From contig DATKHY010000003.1 of the NCBI GenBank assembly GCA_035544215.1, forward strand, positions 382,501-446,500: DNA of 64,000 nucleotides, written 5' to 3'. Below the pieces are notes generated by a model. The model had not been told where the DNA came from. It saw only the letters and a list, made by a program, of their open reading frames with translations, and ran no database searches. This DNA is from Candidatus Binatia bacterium. GTDB lineage: Bacteria; Vulcanimicrobiota; Vulcanimicrobiia; Vulcanimicrobiales; Vulcanimicrobiaceae. The position numbers were made by a program, and so were the translations under genes. Shown here in pieces: positions 1 through 39,735 of the stretch; within the stretch, counting starts at the first letter, position 1, and each line of letters begins with the position of its first letter.

Positions 1-1507
1 AATGAACCTGCGAGTTACTTGTAACGGGCTTGGTTAAGGTGTTGAGCCGGAGCCGTAGCGAAAGCGAGTCTGAATAGGGCGTTCGTCCGTTGCAGTAGAC
101 CCGAAACCGAGTGATCTATCCATGGCCAGGGTGAAGCGTGATTAACCTCACGTGGAGGCCCGAACCTGTTGTTGTTGAAAAAACATTGGATGAGCTGTGG
201 ATAGGGGTGAAAAGCCAATCGAACTCGGAGATAGCTGGTTCTCCCCGAAATAGTTTTAGGACTAGCGTTACGCGTTAACCCGCGGGGGTAGAGCACTGAC
301 AGGGCTAGGGGTCTTACCGGACTACCGAACCCAATCAAACTCCGAATACCGCGGCGAATTGCGTAGCAGTCAGACTGTGGGGGATAAGCTCCATGGTCAA
401 AAGGGAAACAGCCCAGATCAACAGCTAAGGTCCCTAATCGATGCTCAGTGGTAAAGGATGTCTTGTCGCTCAGACAACTAGGAGGTTGGCTTAGAAGCAG
501 CCACCCTTGAAAGAGTGCGTAATAGCTCACTAGTCGAGTGATGGGGCGCCGAAAATCCAACGGGGCTCAAGCATCGAACCGAAGCTTTGGGATTACTAAA
601 ATAATCGGTAGGGGAGCGTTGTGGTGTAGGCCGAAGCACGACCGCGAGGACGTGTGGACGAACCACAAGTGCGAATGCAGGTATAAGTAGCGATAAATGC
701 GGGTGAGAACCCCGCACGCCGGAAGTCTAAGGTTTCCTGAGCAACGTCAATCGTCTCAGGGTGAGTCGGGAGCTAAGCCGAGGCTGAGAAGCGTAGGCGA
801 TGCACAAGCAGTTCATATTCTGCTACCACCGACGACCGTTTAGACCTTGCGGTACAATGTTTAACGAGATCCCGCGAAGGATTTTTGCTCGAGCGCTAGG
901 AGCGCCGAAGGCACGGTCTATGGACCGTAACCGAGGCGCGACAACGCGATCGACAAAAATACCCGCGGCGTTGGACATCGTTCTGTAAGGTCTATGAGCC
1001 GAGGGGGTGACGCAGGAGGATAGGTCAGCGCGCCGATGGATGTGCGCGTCTAAGCCGGTAGGCGGTGTTGTAGGTAAGTCCGCAACACGTAACGCCGAGA
1101 AGCGAATGCGAGGCTCTTCGGAGCCGAAGTGACCAACTCCACGCTGCCAAGAAAAGCCCCTAGGTAGATCGTAGGTGCCCGTACCGTACACCGACACAGG
1201 TAGACTGGCAGAGCATGCTAAGGCGACGGGAGAATCCCTGTTAAGGAACTCGGCAAATTAACCCCGTAACTTAGGGAGAAGGGGTGCCTTCTTTGGTCTA
1301 GTGTTTACCACGAAAGCTAAGGGAGGCGGCACAAAATAGGCCCAAGCGACTGTTTAACAAAAACACAGGTCTCTGCGAACGCGAAAGCGGACGTATAGGG
1401 GCTGACTCCTGCCCGGTGCTGGAAGGTTAAAGGGAGTCGTCAGCGCAAGCGAAGCGGCGAACTGAAGCCCCAGTAAACGGCGGCGGTAACTATAACCGTC
1501 CTAAGGT
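1..1507 (+). rRNA. rrl: 23S ribosomal RNA, exon 1 (5' end outside window)
   Basis: Conserved 23S segments can be read in order, including the 'gatagctggttctccccgaaa' region near 230 and 'gcgtaatagctcac' near 517. The exon ends at 'cctaaggt' (1500-1507), equal to E. coli U1931. The 5' several hundred bases of the gene lie before the window. A branched expansion of well over 100 nt sits in domain III at about 826-1000. Open reading frames on either strand here are rRNA shadows. Confidence 0.97.
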
Positions 1508-1781
1508 GACATAATCGTTGCCTCATCGCACGGTGACGTGCGATCGAAAACCTGGCTATATGCGGGAACATCCTGAGAGCCTCAACTACTCGATCGCGTT
1601 GTAACGACGCGGTCTGTAACAATGTTGAGGATTGGACAATCCGCAGGAAACCTCGAGTCTGTTGATTCGGGGGATCCTCAGAGACTATACGCTAGGCTCC
1701 ACAGACGAGTTGAACCGTGCGCGGTTCTCTTAGTGGATGAAGATAGAGTCCGATCCGGCGTGAAAGCGCCGGAACCAATCG
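1508..1781 (+). ncRNA. Group I self-splicing intron at 23S position L1931 (no ORF)
   Basis: The expected exon run 'cctaaggt|agcgaaattcc' is split by 274 nt. The 5' exon ends in U (1507) and the intron ends in G (1781), as group I splicing requires. P1 can be drawn: exon AGGU (1504-1507) pairs with GCCU (1520-1523), with a U.G wobble at the splice site. Core elements appear in order: P-like 'tgcgggaacatcc' (1561-1573), Q-like 'aatccgcaggaaacc' (1638-1652), R-like 'cagagactatac' (1679-1690) and S-like 'agatagagtcc' (1741-1751). GACU (1683-1686) and AGUC (1747-1750) can form P7. No endonuclease gene fits inside. The subgroup is not assigned. Confidence 0.93.
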
Positions 1782-2325
<544 letters not shown>

Positions 2326-3139
2326 CAAGAAGGGCTCCTCATTCGAGCGATCGGATGATGAACAGTGGCTCATATCGGTGAAACCCTTTCTAAAAGGGCA
2401 ATACCGAGGGAAGAGAGTTTGTCGTAGAGACATTGTTTGGCCGTCACGCTCGAGCGACTCCGTTTAGTTCCCGTGAATGGGAACTAGTGATCGGATCGTT
2501 GCTCGGTGACGCGACGTTGCTGAAGACCACAGCCGGCTACTGCTTCCGGGTTCATCACGGACCTCGGCAGCAACAGCTTGTGGATTGGAAGTATACCGAG
2601 CTCGCACGCTTCGTGCGAACGGCGCCACGACTGTCCGGGAATGGATACTATTTTCGGACGGTAACGCATCCAAAACTCGCGGAACTCCGCGAGTGGTTCT
2701 ACACCGGCGAGAGAAAGATCGTGCCGATCGAGCTGCTTGCGAGCAGCCTGAATGAGTTCGGTCTGGCGGTGTGGATTATGGATGACGGTGCGGCTGAAGG
2801 CAATCAGCTGCGCCTGAACACTCAGGGCTTCTCAGTCTACGAGGCTGAGGAACTCGGATGTCTCATACGAGCTAAGTTCGGCATTGTGATGACGATTAAT
2901 CAGGACAAGAATCGGCCACGGCTGCGCTGCAAGGCAGCAAGCATGAACCGCCTTGTCGAGTTGGTACGGACTCACACCCTGCCGAGTATGCTATACAAGC
3001 TCTCCCTGTAACGACTTCTCGTTTGCCGACGAGAGATGGACGCGCGGCGCGCGTAGCGCGCAAATCTATCGCGTTCATAACACGCCACCATCTCGAAAGA
3101 GATGAAGGTATAGTCTGCGCTGCAAGTGATTGCAGAACG
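2326..3139 (+). mobile_element. Group I intron in 23S at about E. coli 2473, carrying a homing endonuclease gene
   Basis: The normal 23S run 'cccccaagagt|ccacatcgacgggg' is interrupted by 814 nt. The 5' exon ends in U (2325) and the intron ends in G (3139). P1 can be drawn as exon GAGU (2322-2325) with GCUC (2334-2337), giving the usual U.G wobble and an 8-nt loop. GG at 2332-2333 can pair with CC at the start of the 3' exon (P10). The segment around 2376-2412 (CGGUGAAA ... CAAUACCGAGGG) resembles a P3-P4/P6 core. AGAC (2428-2431) can pair with GUCU (3113-3116) as P7, inside the typical 'gaaggtatagtct' block. The endonuclease gene lies between the two P7 strands, so in the P8 region. This is a mobile intron by architecture. 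Confidence 0.93.
2433..3011 (+). CDS. LAGLIDADG homing endonuclease encoded in the 23S intron
   Basis: The 192-residue protein is predicted to cut an intronless 23S allele at the exon junction so that repair copies the intron in. Two LAGLIDADG-type helices are visible: [12 protein letters not shown] (about residues 19-30, acidic D26) and [12 protein letters not shown] (about 109-120, acidic D117/D118). The spacing and the WIMDDG form resemble the LAGLIDADG_2 group. The only start in this position is TTG at 2433, directly after the 5' strand of P7, with no clear Shine-Dalgarno. Expression from within an rRNA precursor is expected to be weak. The frame is open and both acidic residues are kept, so the enzyme may still be active. 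Confidence 0.9.
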
Positions 3140-3563
<424 letters not shown>

Positions 3564-3713
3564 ACAAACGCTCCTCGTGACGCCTGGAAGTTCTTCTCTG
3601 TACAGCTTTGCAAGCTTCCCGGCGCGATCGGCTCGAGCTCCGGCTCGCCATCGCGCTCGGGGACCAAGGTTTGGACCCCAAAGGACTAACGTCGTTTGGG
3701 GAACCCAACAAGG
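3564..3713 (+). other. 23S-5S internal spacer, no tRNA seen
   Basis: About 150 nt between the two rRNA genes. I find no cloverleaf or T-arm motif. It is expected to be processed out of the rRNA precursor. Confidence 0.6.
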
Positions 3714-34242: not shown

Positions 34243-35022
34243 CTAGCTTGGTTCGAGGAGGATCTTGCGGTAGCTGGCGTAGCGGCTGGCCGCGATACCT
34301 CCCGCAGCGACCGCGGCCTGGACCGCGCAGCCCGGCTCCTGCAGGTGGGTGCAGTCGCGAAACCGGCAGCGGGTCGCGGGCTCGCACATCTCGCGAAAGG
34401 CGGGGGCCAGCGTCTGCGCGTCGATTGCCCCCAGGCCGAACTCGTTGATCCCGGGGCTGTCGATGAGGAAGCCCGCGGGCAGCCGATAGAGGCGCCCCGC
34501 CGTGGTGGTCTGGCGGCCCAGCCCGTGGCGGGAGACGGCGCCGACCTGCGTGTCGCCGCCGAGCGCCCTGAAAATCGTGCTCTTGCCCACGCCGGAGTTG
34601 CCGACCAGCAGCGCGCGGCGGTCGCGGATCAGCTCACGGAAGGCCTCGAGGTTCTCGCCGGTCTTGGGATTGAGGCGCATCGTCGAATAGTCGAGTCCCC
34701 GATAGAACGCCGTCAGGCCGGCGGTCACCTCCGGATCTCCCAGGTCGGGCTTGGTGAAAATGACTGCGGCTGCGATGCCCTCGAGTTCGGCAAACGCCAG
34801 GAGTTGATCGAGCGTGACGAGACGAGGCGCCGGATTGGCAAGCGCGGTGACGGTGACGAGCAGATCGACGTTGGCGGCCATGGTTTTCGTTCGGCCGACC
34901 GCGCTGCGGCGTTCGAGCGTAAACCCACGCGGCTCGATGCGTTCGACGACCGTCTGACCGTCTTCCAACATGCGCACTTGGACGACGTCGCCGGGAACCG
35001 GCATAAAACGCTTGCCGCTCAT
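34243..35022 (-). CDS. rsgA: Ribosome small subunit-dependent GTPase RsgA
   Basis: A 259-residue circularly permuted GTPase that checks late 30S maturation. The order is OB fold (about residues 1-55), then G4 FTKPDLGDPE, then G1 LLVGNSGVGKSTIFRAL, then G3 LIDSPGINEFGL. The C-terminal zinc knuckle has the pattern C...C...H...C in MCEPATRCRFRDCTHLQEPGCAV. It is next to rpsT on the same strand and divergent from the cdaA cluster. Confidence 0.93.
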   Translation of the reverse strand: MSGKRFMPVPGDVVQVRMLEDGQTVVERIEPRGFTLERRSAVGRTKTMAANVDLLVTVTALANPAPRLVTLDQLLAFAELEGIAAAVIFTKPDLGDPEVTAGLTAFYRGLDYSTMRLNPKTGENLEAFRELIRDRRALLVGNSGVGKSTIFRALGGDTQVGAVSRHGLGRQTTTAGRLYRLPAGFLIDSPGINEFGLGAIDAQTLAPAFREMCEPATRCRFRDCTHLQEPGCAVQAAVAAGGIAASRYASYRKILLEPS

Positions 35023-35062
35023 GCGCCGCAGCTGCGCGAGGCGCGGCGCCGTTTCGCCGTCA

Positions 35063-35650
35063 ATGGAAATCCACGCGGAGTTTTTTCCGGTCGAGACGAC
35101 GAACGCGCGATGGAGCGTGGCTTATGTGACCTTGAGCATCGCTGGAACGCCCGACGAGCGGCAGCGCGCAGCTATCGACGAAACCGTTCGCGCGCAGGGC
35201 GGCCGGACGGCGTGGCGCGTGCATCCGAAGATCGGCCGTTCGTACGCGCTGATCGAAAGCGCCGTCCCCGTCGACGCGCAGTCGATCCGCTCGGTCTCGG
35301 GCGGCGAGGCGTACGCATCGGCGGTCATTGCTTTGGCAGTTTCCCCGGCCGTCCCGCAAGCCTTGCCGAGCGTACAGGAAGCGCTGGGCGGTCCGGGGCG
35401 CCCGGCCGGAGTTCTCGCCTGCCATCCGTTTCCCGGCGGCGCCGTGATCGAGTGGGATCCGGACGTGTCGAGCACCGCACTCGTGATGGGTCTCATCGAC
35501 GTCGAGTTGCGGCGCTTCGCCAGCGGACGCACCGCGGAGGTGCTCGGGCCGCTCCCCAGGTCTGCGATCGCGAAGATCGCGGCGGACGGTCTGCAAGCTC
35601 CCGAGATACGGCTCGATCGCGTCTTGGAGGCACTGGTCGATGACGCTTAG
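35063..35650 (+). CDS. Hypothetical protein leading the cdaA operon
   Basis: 195 residues from ATG 35063; an in-frame ATG at 34970 lies within rsgA. I do not recognise a family. No signal peptide or transmembrane helix is seen. It looks like a small alpha/beta protein with conserved-looking hydrophobic strands (SYALIESAVPV, ASAVIALAVS, GGAVIEWDPDV). The last 11 nt overlap cdaA, so translation is probably coupled. A link with c-di-AMP synthesis is inferred from position only. Confidence 0.7.
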   Translation: MEIHAEFFPVETTNARWSVAYVTLSIAGTPDERQRAAIDETVRAQGGRTAWRVHPKIGRSYALIESAVPVDAQSIRSVSGGEAYASAVIALAVSPAVPQALPSVQEALGGPGRPAGVLACHPFPGGAVIEWDPDVSSTALVMGLIDVELRRFASGRTAEVLGPLPRSAIAKIAADGLQAPEIRLDRVLEALVDDA

Positions 35651-36515
35651 CGCGCTGGGCCCCGTCGGAGTCTCGGACGTGATCGACGTCATCGCGACGA
35701 GCGTGTTGATCTATTACGTGTTGCTGCTGATCCGCGGCACGCGCGCGGTGCAGATTCTGATCGGGATACTCGTGGTCGTCGGGCTGCTCGGCATCGCGAA
35801 TCTGCTCCACTTGTCCATGCTGGGAACGGTGCTGCGCCTGATCGTGGTGGGCGCGGCGGTCTCCATTCCGATCGTGTTTCAGCCCGAACTACGACGCGCG
35901 CTCGAGCAGATCGGTCGCGGTGGCCTCTTTCGGATGGAGGCTGCGGACGGCGAGCCGGGTTGGGGACGCCCGGAGGATCGGGCGATCGTAGTGATCGCGC
36001 GCACCGCATCGCTGCTCGCACGCAACCGCCGCGGCGCGATCCTCGTGATCGAGCAGCAGACCGGGCTCAAGGAGTATTGCGAGAGCGGGACGATGTTGCA
36101 CGCCAACATCTCCGAAGAGTTACTGCTCTCGATCTTCGCGCCGGCATCGCCGCTGCACGACGGCGCCGTCGTGGTGCGCGAGGGCCGGATCGAGGCCGCG
36201 GGGTGCTTTTTGCCGCTGGCGGAGCAGCCGCTGACGAACCTGCGCATCGGGACGCGGCATCGCGCCGCACTCGGCCTGACCGAACAGACCGACGCCGTCG
36301 TGCTCGTGGTTTCCGAACAGACCGGCGCGATCACGATCGCCCGCGCAGGCAGGCTGTCGCGCCCCATCGATGACGAACAGCGGCTCGTCAGAATGCTGCT
36401 GGCGATCACGCGGCCGCCCCGGCGCGAGCGCCGCCGAACGAACGACATAATCTCGAACCTGCGCCTACGCATGCGCTCGGGACGCCGCGAGCGCGAATCG
36501 CATGCAGTTCATTGA
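35640..36515 (+). CDS. cdaA: Diadenylate cyclase CdaA
   Basis: Makes the second messenger c-di-AMP from two ATP. The 291-residue protein has three N-terminal transmembrane helices (about residues 12-80), a coiled linker, and a DAC domain with the DGA motif D174-A176 (PLHDGAVVV) and the RHR motif R206-R208 (IGTRHRAALG). The C terminus is extended and very basic (about 30 Arg-rich residues). The operon order cdaA-cdaR-glmM is the classic one and connects c-di-AMP with cell-wall precursor supply. Confidence 0.96.
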   Translation: MTLSALGPVGVSDVIDVIATSVLIYYVLLLIRGTRAVQILIGILVVVGLLGIANLLHLSMLGTVLRLIVVGAAVSIPIVFQPELRRALEQIGRGGLFRMEAADGEPGWGRPEDRAIVVIARTASLLARNRRGAILVIEQQTGLKEYCESGTMLHANISEELLLSIFAPASPLHDGAVVVREGRIEAAGCFLPLAEQPLTNLRIGTRHRAALGLTEQTDAVVLVVSEQTGAITIARAGRLSRPIDDEQRLVRMLLAITRPPRRERRRTNDIISNLRLRMRSGRRERESHAVH

Positions 36516-37170
36516 GAAGAACTTCTCGCTGAAGCTGCTGGCGTTAGGACTAGCGATCGTCGGCTGGGCCTACTTTCGCTTCGCAAACAGTCCCACCGGG
36601 GCCGCGGCGCCCGACCAGCAACTGTCCATTCCGATCGCGGCGGTGAATCTGCCGCTTGGGTACGTTGCGCATTTCGCCGATCACCAAGCCGTCGTGACCG
36701 TTGCCGCCAAAGGCGGCGAGCCGGCCGTCAAACCGGAGGAGATCAAAGCGGTGCTCGACCTTTCGAACAAGGGCACGGGAATCTATAACGTTCCGGTACA
36801 GCTGGTCGCTCCCGACGTCGTGGTCCAGAGCCTGAGCCCGGCGTCAATCACGCTGACGGTCGAGCCGATCGAGCAGCGTCCGTTCCCGGTCACCCTGCAT
36901 TACGTAGGAGCGCGGACCGGCGGCATCGTCGTCGCGAGCGGCCGAGTCGAACCGCAGACGGCGGTCGTCCGCGGGCCCGCTTCCGTGCTCGGGCAGGTTT
37001 CCGCGGTCCAGGCCGACGTCGCGCTGCCGAGCGCGGCCGGGGACGTCGACGAAATGGTCCGAGCCGTCGCCGTGAACTCGGGCGGCACGGAGGTTTCGGG
37101 ACTCTCCGTCGCCCCGAATCTCGTTCGCGTGCAGATGCACTCCGCCGCCGGCACCGGAAAGACGAAGTGA
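36502..37170 (+). CDS. cdaR: CdaR, YbbR-domain regulator of diadenylate cyclase
   Basis: A 222-residue protein with an N-terminal membrane anchor (FSLKLLALGLAIVGWAYFRF) and extracytoplasmic YbbR repeats (ITLTVEPIEQRPFPVTLHYVG is a typical repeat start). CdaR proteins bind and modulate CdaA. The start overlaps the cdaA end by 14 nt. Confidence 0.88.
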   Translation: MQFIEKNFSLKLLALGLAIVGWAYFRFANSPTGAAAPDQQLSIPIAAVNLPLGYVAHFADHQAVVTVAAKGGEPAVKPEEIKAVLDLSNKGTGIYNVPVQLVAPDVVVQSLSPASITLTVEPIEQRPFPVTLHYVGARTGGIVVASGRVEPQTAVVRGPASVLGQVSAVQADVALPSAAGDVDEMVRAVAVNSGGTEVSGLSVAPNLVRVQMHSAAGTGKTK

Positions 37171-38525
37171 GCCGGCTGTTCGGAACCGACGGCGTGCGGG
37201 GCGTCGCGAACCGCGAGCTCACGCCGGAGCTCGCGATGCGCATTGGCCGCGCGGCGGCGAGCCTGCTTCCGGACGGGATCGAGCAGCGCCCGGTGATCGT
37301 CGGGCGGGACACGCGCGTCTCCGGAACGATGCTGGAGGCGGCGATCGTCGCCGGCATCACGTCGGTCGGGAGGGACGCCGTGTCGGTCGGCATCGTTCCC
37401 ACGCCTGCGATCGCGTGCATTACGCGCGCCGAGGACGCGGCGGCCGGAGTCGTCATCAGCGCGTCGCACAATCCGATTGCGGACAACGGCATCAAGTTCT
37501 TCGGGTCGGACGGGTTCAAGCTTTCCGATAGCCTCGAGGACGAGATCGAGGCACTGCTGGATTCCCACACGCTTCCGCGTCCGACCGGAACCGCCGTCGG
37601 CGTGGCTCGCGTGGCGCAAAATCTTGCGCGCCACTATTACGCAGAGCTGTACGACGGCAGCCCCGATCTGCGCGGGCTGCGCGTCGTCGTCGACGGCGGT
37701 TTCGGCGCGGCCTACGCGATCGCGCCGTACGCCTTGCGCAAGCTCGGTGCGGAGGTCACGGAAATCAACTGCGACGACGACGGAGCGCGCATCAACGTGC
37801 AATGCGGCGCGACGAATCTGAAAGCGCTGCAGGAGGCCGTCGCGGCCGAAAACGGCGGGAGCGGACGGAAGGCGATTGGCGTCGCCTTCGACGGCGATGC
37901 CGACCGGGTACTGTTCGTCGACGAGACCGGCGCCGTCGCGACCGGCGATCACGTCATGTTTGCGCTGGGCCGCGGAATGCACGCGCAGGGCGAGCTGCGG
38001 GGCGATACGATCGTGGGAACGGTGATGAGCAACATCGGTTTCGAGCGTGCGCTGCGCCGGCACGGCATTACGCTGCTGCGTACGCCGGTCGGCGACCGCT
38101 ACGTGCTCGAGCAGATGCGCGAGGGAGACTTCGCGCTCGGCGGAGAGCAGTCCGGGCACGTGGTCGACTTTCGTTACAACACGACCGGCGACGGACCACG
38201 CACGGCGGTGACGCTTCTCGCGCTGATAGCGGCGCACGCGACGACGCTGCACGAACTCGTTCGTGAGGTCGTCATCGCGCCGCAGGTATTAGTAAACGTG
38301 CGCGCGGGCAATCGCGAGGTACTCGCGGCGCCGGCGGTCCGCGAGGAGATCGCCGCGGCCGAGGCCGCGCTGAACGGAAGCGGCCGACTCCTCATACGGC
38401 CGTCCGGGACCGAGCCGCTAATTCGCGTGATGGCCGAGGGCGACGATCGCGCTTTGGTCATCGCGCTGGCAAGCCGTGTTGCCGCTCGAATCGAGCAGGA
38501 GGTCGAACGAACCGGCTCCGCCTAG
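37167..38525 (+). CDS. glmM: Phosphoglucosamine mutase
   Basis: Interconverts glucosamine 6- and 1-phosphate for peptidoglycan synthesis. It has 452 residues from GTG 37167. The phosphoserine is S100 in VVISASHNP, the metal loop is AFDGDADRVLF, the sugar-binding GGEQSGH is present, and the phosphate loop is RPSGTEPLIRVM. In other bacteria GlmM binds and inhibits CdaA. The partner glmS is cut by the window's right edge, 25 kb away. Confidence 0.96.
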   Translation: MSRLFGTDGVRGVANRELTPELAMRIGRAAASLLPDGIEQRPVIVGRDTRVSGTMLEAAIVAGITSVGRDAVSVGIVPTPAIACITRAEDAAAGVVISASHNPIADNGIKFFGSDGFKLSDSLEDEIEALLDSHTLPRPTGTAVGVARVAQNLARHYYAELYDGSPDLRGLRVVVDGGFGAAYAIAPYALRKLGAEVTEINCDDDGARINVQCGATNLKALQEAVAAENGGSGRKAIGVAFDGDADRVLFVDETGAVATGDHVMFALGRGMHAQGELRGDTIVGTVMSNIGFERALRRHGITLLRTPVGDRYVLEQMREGDFALGGEQSGHVVDFRYNTTGDGPRTAVTLLALIAAHATTLHELVREVVIAPQVLVNVRAGNREVLAAPAVREEIAAAEAALNGSGRLLIRPSGTEPLIRVMAEGDDRALVIALASRVAARIEQEVERTGSA

Positions 38526-38562
38526 CCTTCAGACGAGCTTCAGATTTGCGAAGTACAACACC

Positions 38563-38790
38563 CGGGGAGGGCGACTCAGGTTAACGCCGAAGCGCCCGAG
38601 CCAAGGGGCTCCCAACGGAGCGAGTTAGCTCAATAGGGTGACCCCAATGCCTAAGTATAGGTCACTGAGTCGGGACATTGCGTCCCGAGCGGGGGATTTC
38701 TCCGGTAGGGGTGAGTGGGCCGGTCGGCCCTAGGGCGATTCTTTCCCGCCCGAACCCGTCAACTAACCCCGCAAGTGTCGTGAAAGAGGA
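38563..38790 (+). ncRNA. ydaO/yuaA-type cyclic di-AMP riboswitch
   Basis: The leader between glmM and the NlpC/P60 gene contains the ydaO landmarks in order. A GGGG-CCCAA segment (38604-38615) is followed by GGGUGACCCC (38636-38645). An AGGGGUGAGUGGGC stretch comes next. The closing block is CCCGAACCCGUCAACUAACC (38749-38768), with GCAAG and GUCGUGAAAGAGGAG just before the start codon. The same end is found in Bacillus ydaO. The 3' end runs into the Shine-Dalgarno, so control of translation or termination is possible. Edges are approximate. Confidence 0.88.
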
Positions 38791-38798
38791 GCGGTTTC

Positions 38799-39407
38799 TT
38801 GCGTCATGCGTTACTCCTAGGGGCACTTGCCCTATTGATCGGTGGTTCGAGCGCGCTGGCTCGCGCCGATTCCATCTCCGGTCCCCAGCTCGATTATTCT
38901 GGCTCGTCGCAGGCGGCCAGTGCCCAAGCCCTAAGCCCTGACGTCGCCGAATGGACGTCCCACCTCATCATCTCCGCCCCACAGCGCCATCGCCTTGGGA
39001 TCGGCCGCTTCGCCGGCGGCGTGCTCGCCCGTACGTCTCGGATGGCCGCTGCGCTCACGCGCAGCGCGCTGCGCTTCTTGGGCGTGCCCTACTCGTTCGG
39101 CGGCACCTCCACCGCGGGGTTTGACTGCTCGGGCTTCGTCCAGCACGTATTCGCCATGCTCGGCATCCCGCTTCCGCGCACGGCGGACGCCCAGTACGAC
39201 GTCGGCCACAGTGCAGTCGGGGGCCCGCATCCCGGAGATCTCGTCTTTTTCGATACCTACGGCGGCGTCTCGCACGTCGGAATCTATCTCGGCGGCGGCA
39301 AGTTCGTTCACGCGAGCTCGAGCCACGGCGTGATGGTGAGCCGCCTTTCGGAATCGTATTGGGCGTCCCGCTATGTGGGAGCGAAGCGCCTCATCGCCAC
39401 GCGCTAA
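38799..39407 (+). CDS. Exported NlpC/P60 cell-wall endopeptidase
   Basis: A 202-residue protein with a signal peptide (about residues 1-23), a linker, and a NlpC/P60 domain. The catalytic Cys is C110 in FDCSGFVQHVF, and the histidine is H159 in SHVGIYLGGGKF, with H171 as the probable third residue. It should cut stem peptides of peptidoglycan. The start is TTG at 38799 with GAGGAG about 7 nt upstream. The c-di-AMP riboswitch lies directly in front, matching the usual ydaO targets, which are wall hydrolases. Confidence 0.9.
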   Translation: MRHALLLGALALLIGGSSALARADSISGPQLDYSGSSQAASAQALSPDVAEWTSHLIISAPQRHRLGIGRFAGGVLARTSRMAAALTRSALRFLGVPYSFGGTSTAGFDCSGFVQHVFAMLGIPLPRTADAQYDVGHSAVGGPHPGDLVFFDTYGGVSHVGIYLGGGKFVHASSSHGVMVSRLSESYWASRYVGAKRLIATR

Positions 39408-39499
39408 GGGTTCGCAGCAGGTCCCACGCCGCTGAAAAGGGGGCCGGTCCACGCGCCGATAACGCTTGGCCGTTAGTTTTGGCATAATAGCCAGAGCGA

Positions 39500-39571
39500 T
39501 GGGGTGTAGCCAAGCGGTAAGGCAGCGGACTTTGACTCCGCCATGCGTTGGTTCGAATCCAGCCACCCCAG
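39500..39571 (+). tRNA. tRNA-Gln (anticodon TTG)
   Basis: A 72-nt cloverleaf. The acceptor pairs TGGGGTG (39500-39506) with CACCCCA (39564-39570) with discriminator G. The anticodon loop is CTTTGAC with TTG, the T arm is GTTGGTTCGAATCCAGC, and CCA is not encoded. A -10-like CATAAT lies at 39483-39488. Confidence 0.95.
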
Positions 39572-39577
39572 CTTTCC

Positions 39578-39609
39578 CATGGCGGAGTCAAGGCCCGATG
39601 CCTTACCGC
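39578..39609 (-). repeat. Inverted partial copy of the tRNA-Gln gene
   Basis: The reverse complement of 39578-39609 matches tRNA bases 39514-39545 (D arm to anticodon stem) at 29 of 32 positions. It begins 7 nt after the tRNA, so tRNA and copy could fold into a long hairpin. Confidence 0.9.
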
Positions 39610-39683
39610 AGCGCAGGCGCGAAGCGCCGGAGCGGAATCTTCAAAATGAAGGGGCCCCCGAAGCGCAAAGCGCTTTGGGGAAG

Positions 39684-39735
39684 AGGCAGCGGACTTTGAC
39701 TCCGCCATGCGTTGGTTCGAATCCAGCCACCCCAG
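39684..39735 (+). pseudogene. 3' fragment duplicate of tRNA-Gln
   Basis: 52 nt identical to 39520-39571, that is, the anticodon arm, variable loop, T arm and 3' acceptor strand. The 5' acceptor strand and D arm are missing, so it cannot make a tRNA. It is a direct repeat, as expected for the far side of an integration event or of a recombination between tRNA copies. Confidence 0.92.

Follow-up and report, generated by a model that had tools for sequence, protein, structure and literature searches.

In Firmicutes, cdaA, cdaR and glmM form an operon of three overlapping genes, in the same order as at the locus described here. Riboswitches of the ydaO type are best known in Gram-positives, as a preliminary description of this locus had stated in agreement with the literature. 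In C. glutamicum, as here, a ydaO-type aptamer precedes an NlpC/P60 peptidase gene (nlpC, cg2402) without a terminator; this riboswitch represses translation, and a pseudoknot (CTCC/GGAG) between a loop and the ribosome-binding site was proposed for it (PMC9960051). Cell-wall hydrolases also stand under c-di-AMP riboswitches in Streptomyces, with rpfA and other hydrolase genes (PMC10117811). The B. subtilis ydaO/kimA aptamer shares with ours the family RF00379 and the loop-tail pseudoknot, which is present in the crystallised ydaO RNA, the printed sequence including CUCCUUCG and CGAAGGAG (PMC5393176). Here we describe a locus of Candidatus Eremiobacterota (Vulcanimicrobiota), a phylum of soil and rock bacteria, in which such an aptamer lies between glmM and an NlpC/P60 gene, behind the synthase operon. 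The window, i.e. the whole stretch of DNA analysed, comprises 64,000 nt.

Genes of the locus and their host

The coordinates of the locus are given in Table 1. CdaA scores above the TIGR00159 equivalog cut-off and carries DAC and CdaA_N domains (profile search); inspection of its sequence shows the DGA and RHR motifs. The NlpC protein has 202 residues, with a complete NlpC/P60 domain (PF00877 profile positions 1-105) behind a signal-peptide-like N terminus; its C/H/H motifs were read as FDCSGF, SHVGIY and FVHASS. The genes cdaA, cdaR and glmM lie on one strand as in the canonical operon, with overlaps of 14 nt (cdaA/cdaR) and 4 nt (cdaR/glmM). From the end of glmM, the spacing is 127 nt to the aptamer and 273 nt to nlpC. 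The profile matches, the coordinates and the aptamer just before nlpC bear out the preliminary description in its gene identities, its overlaps and spacing, and its adjacency of synthase, riboswitch and hydrolase; its start at 35063 takes in a separate upstream ORF, for which GTG 35117 is the likelier start.

Table 1. Features of the cdaA-nlpC locus, with positions in the window
Feature	Position	Strand	Remarks
Gene of a conserved protein without known function	35117..35650	+	probable GTG start 35117; 11 nt shared with cdaA
cdaA, membrane diadenylate cyclase	35640..36515	+	TIGR00159 220.9 bits (cut-off 188.8), PF02457 DAC, PF19293 CdaA_N
cdaR, YbbR-domain regulator	36502..37170	+	PF07949 2.4e-12, two stretches
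glmM, phosphoglucosamine mutase	37167..38525	+	TIGR01455 equivalog, 524 bits (cut-off 447.6)
c-di-AMP (ydaO-type) riboswitch aptamer	38653..38793	+	RF00379 78.5 bits, full length
P1 helix, 5' strand CACU	38663..38666	+	cmscan alignment
Pseudoknot loop strand UUCUUUC	38739..38745	+	pairs with 38782-38788; covariation across the phylum
P1 helix, 3' strand AGUG	38774..38777	+	cmscan alignment
Pseudoknot 3' strand GAAAGAG	38782..38788	+	overlaps the Shine-Dalgarno sequence
nlpC Shine-Dalgarno sequence GAGGAG	38786..38791	+	7 nt 5' of the TTG start (38799); read from sequence
nlpC, NlpC/P60 endopeptidase, TTG start	38799..39407	+	PF00877 3e-34

The protein encoded upstream of cdaA is conserved in families f1 and f2 (28-70% identity) and has no Pfam or NCBIfam match. 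Its AlphaFold2 model (mean pLDDT 91) shows a tandem ferredoxin-like fold, for which fold comparison yielded no assignable PDB relative, the matches to tandem ferredoxin-like proteins being weak.

The DAC domain of cdaA and the NlpC/P60 domain of nlpC are each the only one in the genome, and RF00379 has a single match in the whole 3.23-Mb assembly (97% complete). In the host genome no PgpH-type phosphodiesterase was found, and DHHA1 domains are confined to two products, a DHH/DHHA1 protein of 326 residues and an open frame of 937 residues; the former, with its gene beside a truB-like gene, is a plausible candidate for a DhhP-type c-di-AMP/pApA phosphodiesterase, and the latter is probably alanyl-tRNA synthetase. 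As the genome encodes one Omp85 protein and the cultivated relative Vulcanimicrobium alpinum has an LPS-covered outer membrane by electron microscopy (PMC9758169), we regard the host as diderm, as the preliminary description had held. V. alpinum tolerates only 0-0.1% NaCl (PMC9758169).

Three further observations were made in the window. The rsgA frame (34243-35130, minus strand) extends 5' of its first ATG with the typical N-terminal strand VVSTGKNSAWISIDG, without an ATG, GTG or TTG start. At 39500-39735, a tRNA gene (TTG anticodon by eye, Gln) precedes a weak, partial copy of a tRNA (27 bits) and inverted fragments that resemble tRNA. The 23S rRNA gene at 1-3564 exceeds the model span by about 1.2 kb and has a group I intron match at 1498-1772 (70.9 bits).

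The nlpC leader

By its covariance-model match, the riboswitch belongs to RF00379 (gathering score 38, E 1.4e-16, model positions 1-134, plus strand, scan of the 64 kb). A ydaO-type leader before the endopeptidase gene had been proposed, with this Rfam model as the means of checking it; the full-length match is well over the cut-off, so that the objection of a missing covariance hit falls away. A second structured RNA in the gap between glmM and the aptamer was rejected, having no Rfam match. The aptamer of several relatives begins anywhere from 16 nt inside glmM to 24 nt past it, which points to an intercistronic element. No promoter-like site was found on the plus strand within 38300-39600; the glmM-aptamer gap of the window could hold a separate promoter. 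We infer that cdaA-cdaR-glmM may be co-transcribed through nlpC.

The loop-tail pseudoknot of the crystallised aptamers is present as UUCUUUC/GAAAGAG, with compensatory variants across the phylum. The stem score averaged 15.8 over 107 riboswitches from the phylum, compared with 9.9 after shuffling the loops and 14.0 (sd 0.24, maximum 14.6) after swapping partners between genomes. The loop/tail combination CUUUC/GAAAG occurs 69 times, CUUCC/GGAAG 12 times and CUUCC/GAAAG not at all; since these counts take in related genomes and carry no phylogeny correction, the Fisher value of 2e-10 cannot be taken at face value as a probability. Two copies that are not fused to a Shine-Dalgarno sequence pair via ACGGGA/UCCCGU and CGGGCA/UGUCCG, and several relatives have a pairing of only 5 bp. 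A TTG start is present in 90 of the 107 riboswitch loci, and wherever a TTG start goes with a recognisable Shine-Dalgarno motif, this begins within the pseudoknot strand (82/82); in the window the pseudoknot covers part of the motif only (38786-38788 of 38786-38791). A hairpin GUGACC...GGUCAC upstream, competing with P1, was seen in the window and not in relatives, and was discarded.

Riboswitches of this class are best known to act by transcription termination, as B. subtilis ydaO/kimA does (PMC9960051), but no terminator-like hairpin was found between the aptamer and the nlpC ORF, and the Shine-Dalgarno sequence and start codon lie within about 10 nt of the aptamer, which renders this mode improbable here; termination by Rho or within the coding region is a possible variant of it. 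The leader has the features of C. glutamicum-type translational control: the pseudoknot can reach the Shine-Dalgarno sequence, and no terminator was found. Given the overlap of the two and the missing terminator, translational repression by c-di-AMP is the simplest reading: the platform is likely translational, and c-di-AMP is predicted to turn NlpC off.

The opposite polarity would result if the 3' strand of the ligand-free aptamer paired with the UUG start and the first codons, and c-di-AMP released these. In the window and its close relatives, CGCAAG of the aptamer is indeed complementary to CUUGCG at the start codon, and the fifth codon is frequently TTA, a rare codon for Leu. This anti-aptamer pairing, striking in close relatives, was rejected: the duplex energies of 97 loci are no different from those after synonymous recoding (mean z -0.17, with a null that is GC-richer and biased against the idea), and the complementarity is lost where the aptamer strand differs (CGUACG genera). 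We consider an ON switch very improbable and retain the predicted OFF switch.

Conservation across the phylum and joint loss in a sister family

In a sample of 149 genomes of the phylum, a DAC domain was found in 131 and the riboswitch in 99. In 79 of these 99, the aptamer follows the DAC domain on its strand at a distance of 1.7-4.3 kb (median 2285 nt); in the other 20, DAC and aptamer are mostly on different contigs (contig breaks), or the aptamers are extra copies, and in one genome (G027) the synthase is 15 kb from the aptamer. Nearly all members of the host's family share the order unknown gene-cdaA-cdaR-glmM-aptamer-nlpC, including a genome assembled as one contig of 3,508,363 bp (G025, locus L033), and the sister family f3 has the same order without a detectable unknown gene. 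Within 36 control genomes (Bacillota and one Thermoleophilaceae), chosen by a DNA pattern scan for the riboswitch and not at random, none of the 150 riboswitches among the matches listed, which are the higher-scoring ones, is within 10 kb of a DAC domain.

Four genomes of family f3, from three genera (G041, G042, G051, G054), have kept the NlpC/P60 gene and lack both DAC and riboswitch. At the same locus they carry rpsT (S20), glmM, nlpC, a tRNA and the gene usually upstream of cdaA; cdaA and cdaR are missing, the usual cdaA-upstream gene ends 11-26 nt before glmM, and no aptamer was found in the glmM-nlpC interval of 130-270 nt. A GlmM tree groups three of the four in one well-supported clade within f3 and places the fourth apart from them, and therefore one or two joint losses took place. 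Two further genomes (G108, G053) were rejected as cases of a synthase without riboswitch, owing to contig breaks, one of them inside the aptamer itself. Since the joint loss leaves glmM and nlpC in place, the presence of the aptamer depends on the synthase, and that of the hydrolase does not. Three of the four aptamer-less relatives retain a TTG start with a similar Shine-Dalgarno sequence; the nlpC start region is therefore not unique to riboswitch control, and the TTG start, which rpsT of the window has as well, was not read as a riboswitch feature.

The preliminary description had guessed at one circuit, and the class-wide conservation, the lack of such linkage in the control set and the joint loss of synthase and aptamer back this guess. 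It could be held that the riboswitch controls nlpC but lies next to the synthase through inherited gene order, without extra regulatory meaning: the neighbouring housekeeping genes priA, rpsT and rsgA are equally syntenic, and c-di-AMP diffuses, so that adjacency is not needed for sensing. The aptamer has, however, gone with cdaA-cdaR while glmM and nlpC stay neighbours, which shows dependence on the signal and says nothing of adjacency itself; we regard passive synteny as somewhat unlikely. A decayed or re-targeted relic that has lost c-di-AMP binding would fit one core base, A against G of the Rfam consensus (GUCAACUAACC), and bit scores below the best Bacillota ones, but appears extremely improbable for an aptamer that is conserved class-wide with its pseudoknot maintained, whose presence and absence track the synthase, and whose other copies in the phylum precede typical c-di-AMP targets. 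Such copies lie 5' of kdpA, alanine racemase and SLT lytic transglycosylase genes (L067, L038 and L056).

Additional riboswitches were met as follows. Three members of the host's family have a second riboswitch 5' of a GT4 glycosyltransferase gene (L125:4165-5403, L127 and L136, in G103, G101 and G079), followed in L127, and by eye in L136, by a sucrose-6-phosphate phosphatase-type gene (PF05116, 9e-46). This placement before GT4 and phosphatase-type genes suggests that sucrose, a compatible solute, is under c-di-AMP control in the genomes concerned; no report pairing a c-di-AMP riboswitch with sucrose phosphate was found in the literature searched. In f3 (L044, L046, L031, L040, L047, L063, L076), extra riboswitches lie 5' of genes for a secreted phosphoesterase family (PF04185) and also of a second secreted family, weakly similar to GHL15, neither being a usual c-di-AMP target. 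Two c-di-AMP riboswitches in tandem, at a spacing of about 300 nt, were seen in Thermotalea, Anaerosolibacter and Geosporobacter (L145, L149, L184, L197).

Proposed circuit and comparison with known systems

We consider it likely that the locus is a self-contained module. In it, CdaA, controlled by CdaR and probably GlmM, would make c-di-AMP, which would bind in cis to the aptamer between glmM and nlpC and stabilise the pseudoknot, the 3' strand of which extends into the Shine-Dalgarno sequence. High c-di-AMP would then block translation of the predicted periplasmic NlpC/P60 endopeptidase and low c-di-AMP release it, and wall cutting would thereby track a signal made beside a wall-precursor enzyme. 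For the outer-membrane phylum at large, we lean, with some reserve, towards the view that an intercistronic riboswitch within the synthase cluster serves as the main, and often the only, RNA-level c-di-AMP output, directed at one wall endopeptidase, with synthase, regulator and aptamer lost together in one or two lineages.

If this is correct, the locus would be an autonomous signal-sensor-effector cassette instead of a dispersed regulon. C-di-AMP is tied to turgor and wall integrity, and it is difficult to tell the wall targets on which it acts directly from its potassium targets. In the present genome, which is otherwise simple, a single synthase, a single riboswitch and a single NlpC/P60 enzyme share one locus, and no other NlpC/P60 protein could stand in; the relatives with joint loss of synthase and aptamer provide a built-in natural comparison. 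As the locus occurs in the family of the cultivated V. alpinum, a living strain may allow a test of whether c-di-AMP, wall cutting and osmotic sensitivity are linked.

None of the parts is new by itself: the aptamer class, its occurrence before NlpC/P60 genes, its action on translation and the cdaA-cdaR-glmM cluster have all been described. The novelty, as judged from the genomes compared, lies in the conserved joining of aptamer and nlpC to the synthase operon in a phylum with an outer membrane. In the literature searched, no report was found of the one-locus combination, of its class-wide conservation as the single riboswitch of most genomes or of the joint loss, and none that joins Eremiobacterota with c-di-AMP.

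The sampled Bacillota differ from this arrangement in that, among the matches listed, no c-di-AMP riboswitch follows the operon, and B. subtilis ydaO/kimA differs in its transcription-terminating platform and in controlling a K+ importer. In Streptomyces, six or seven such riboswitches are present per genome, synthesis is DisA-based, and rpfA was reported to be controlled by transcription termination (PMC10117811). C. glutamicum makes c-di-AMP with DisA, whose gene is reported to share an operon with radA; its nlpC belongs to a separate operon under several further regulators, and rpf1 is predicted to have a second riboswitch (PMC9960051), whereas the locus described here has CdaA as the adjacent synthase and a single-copy circuit in a diderm.
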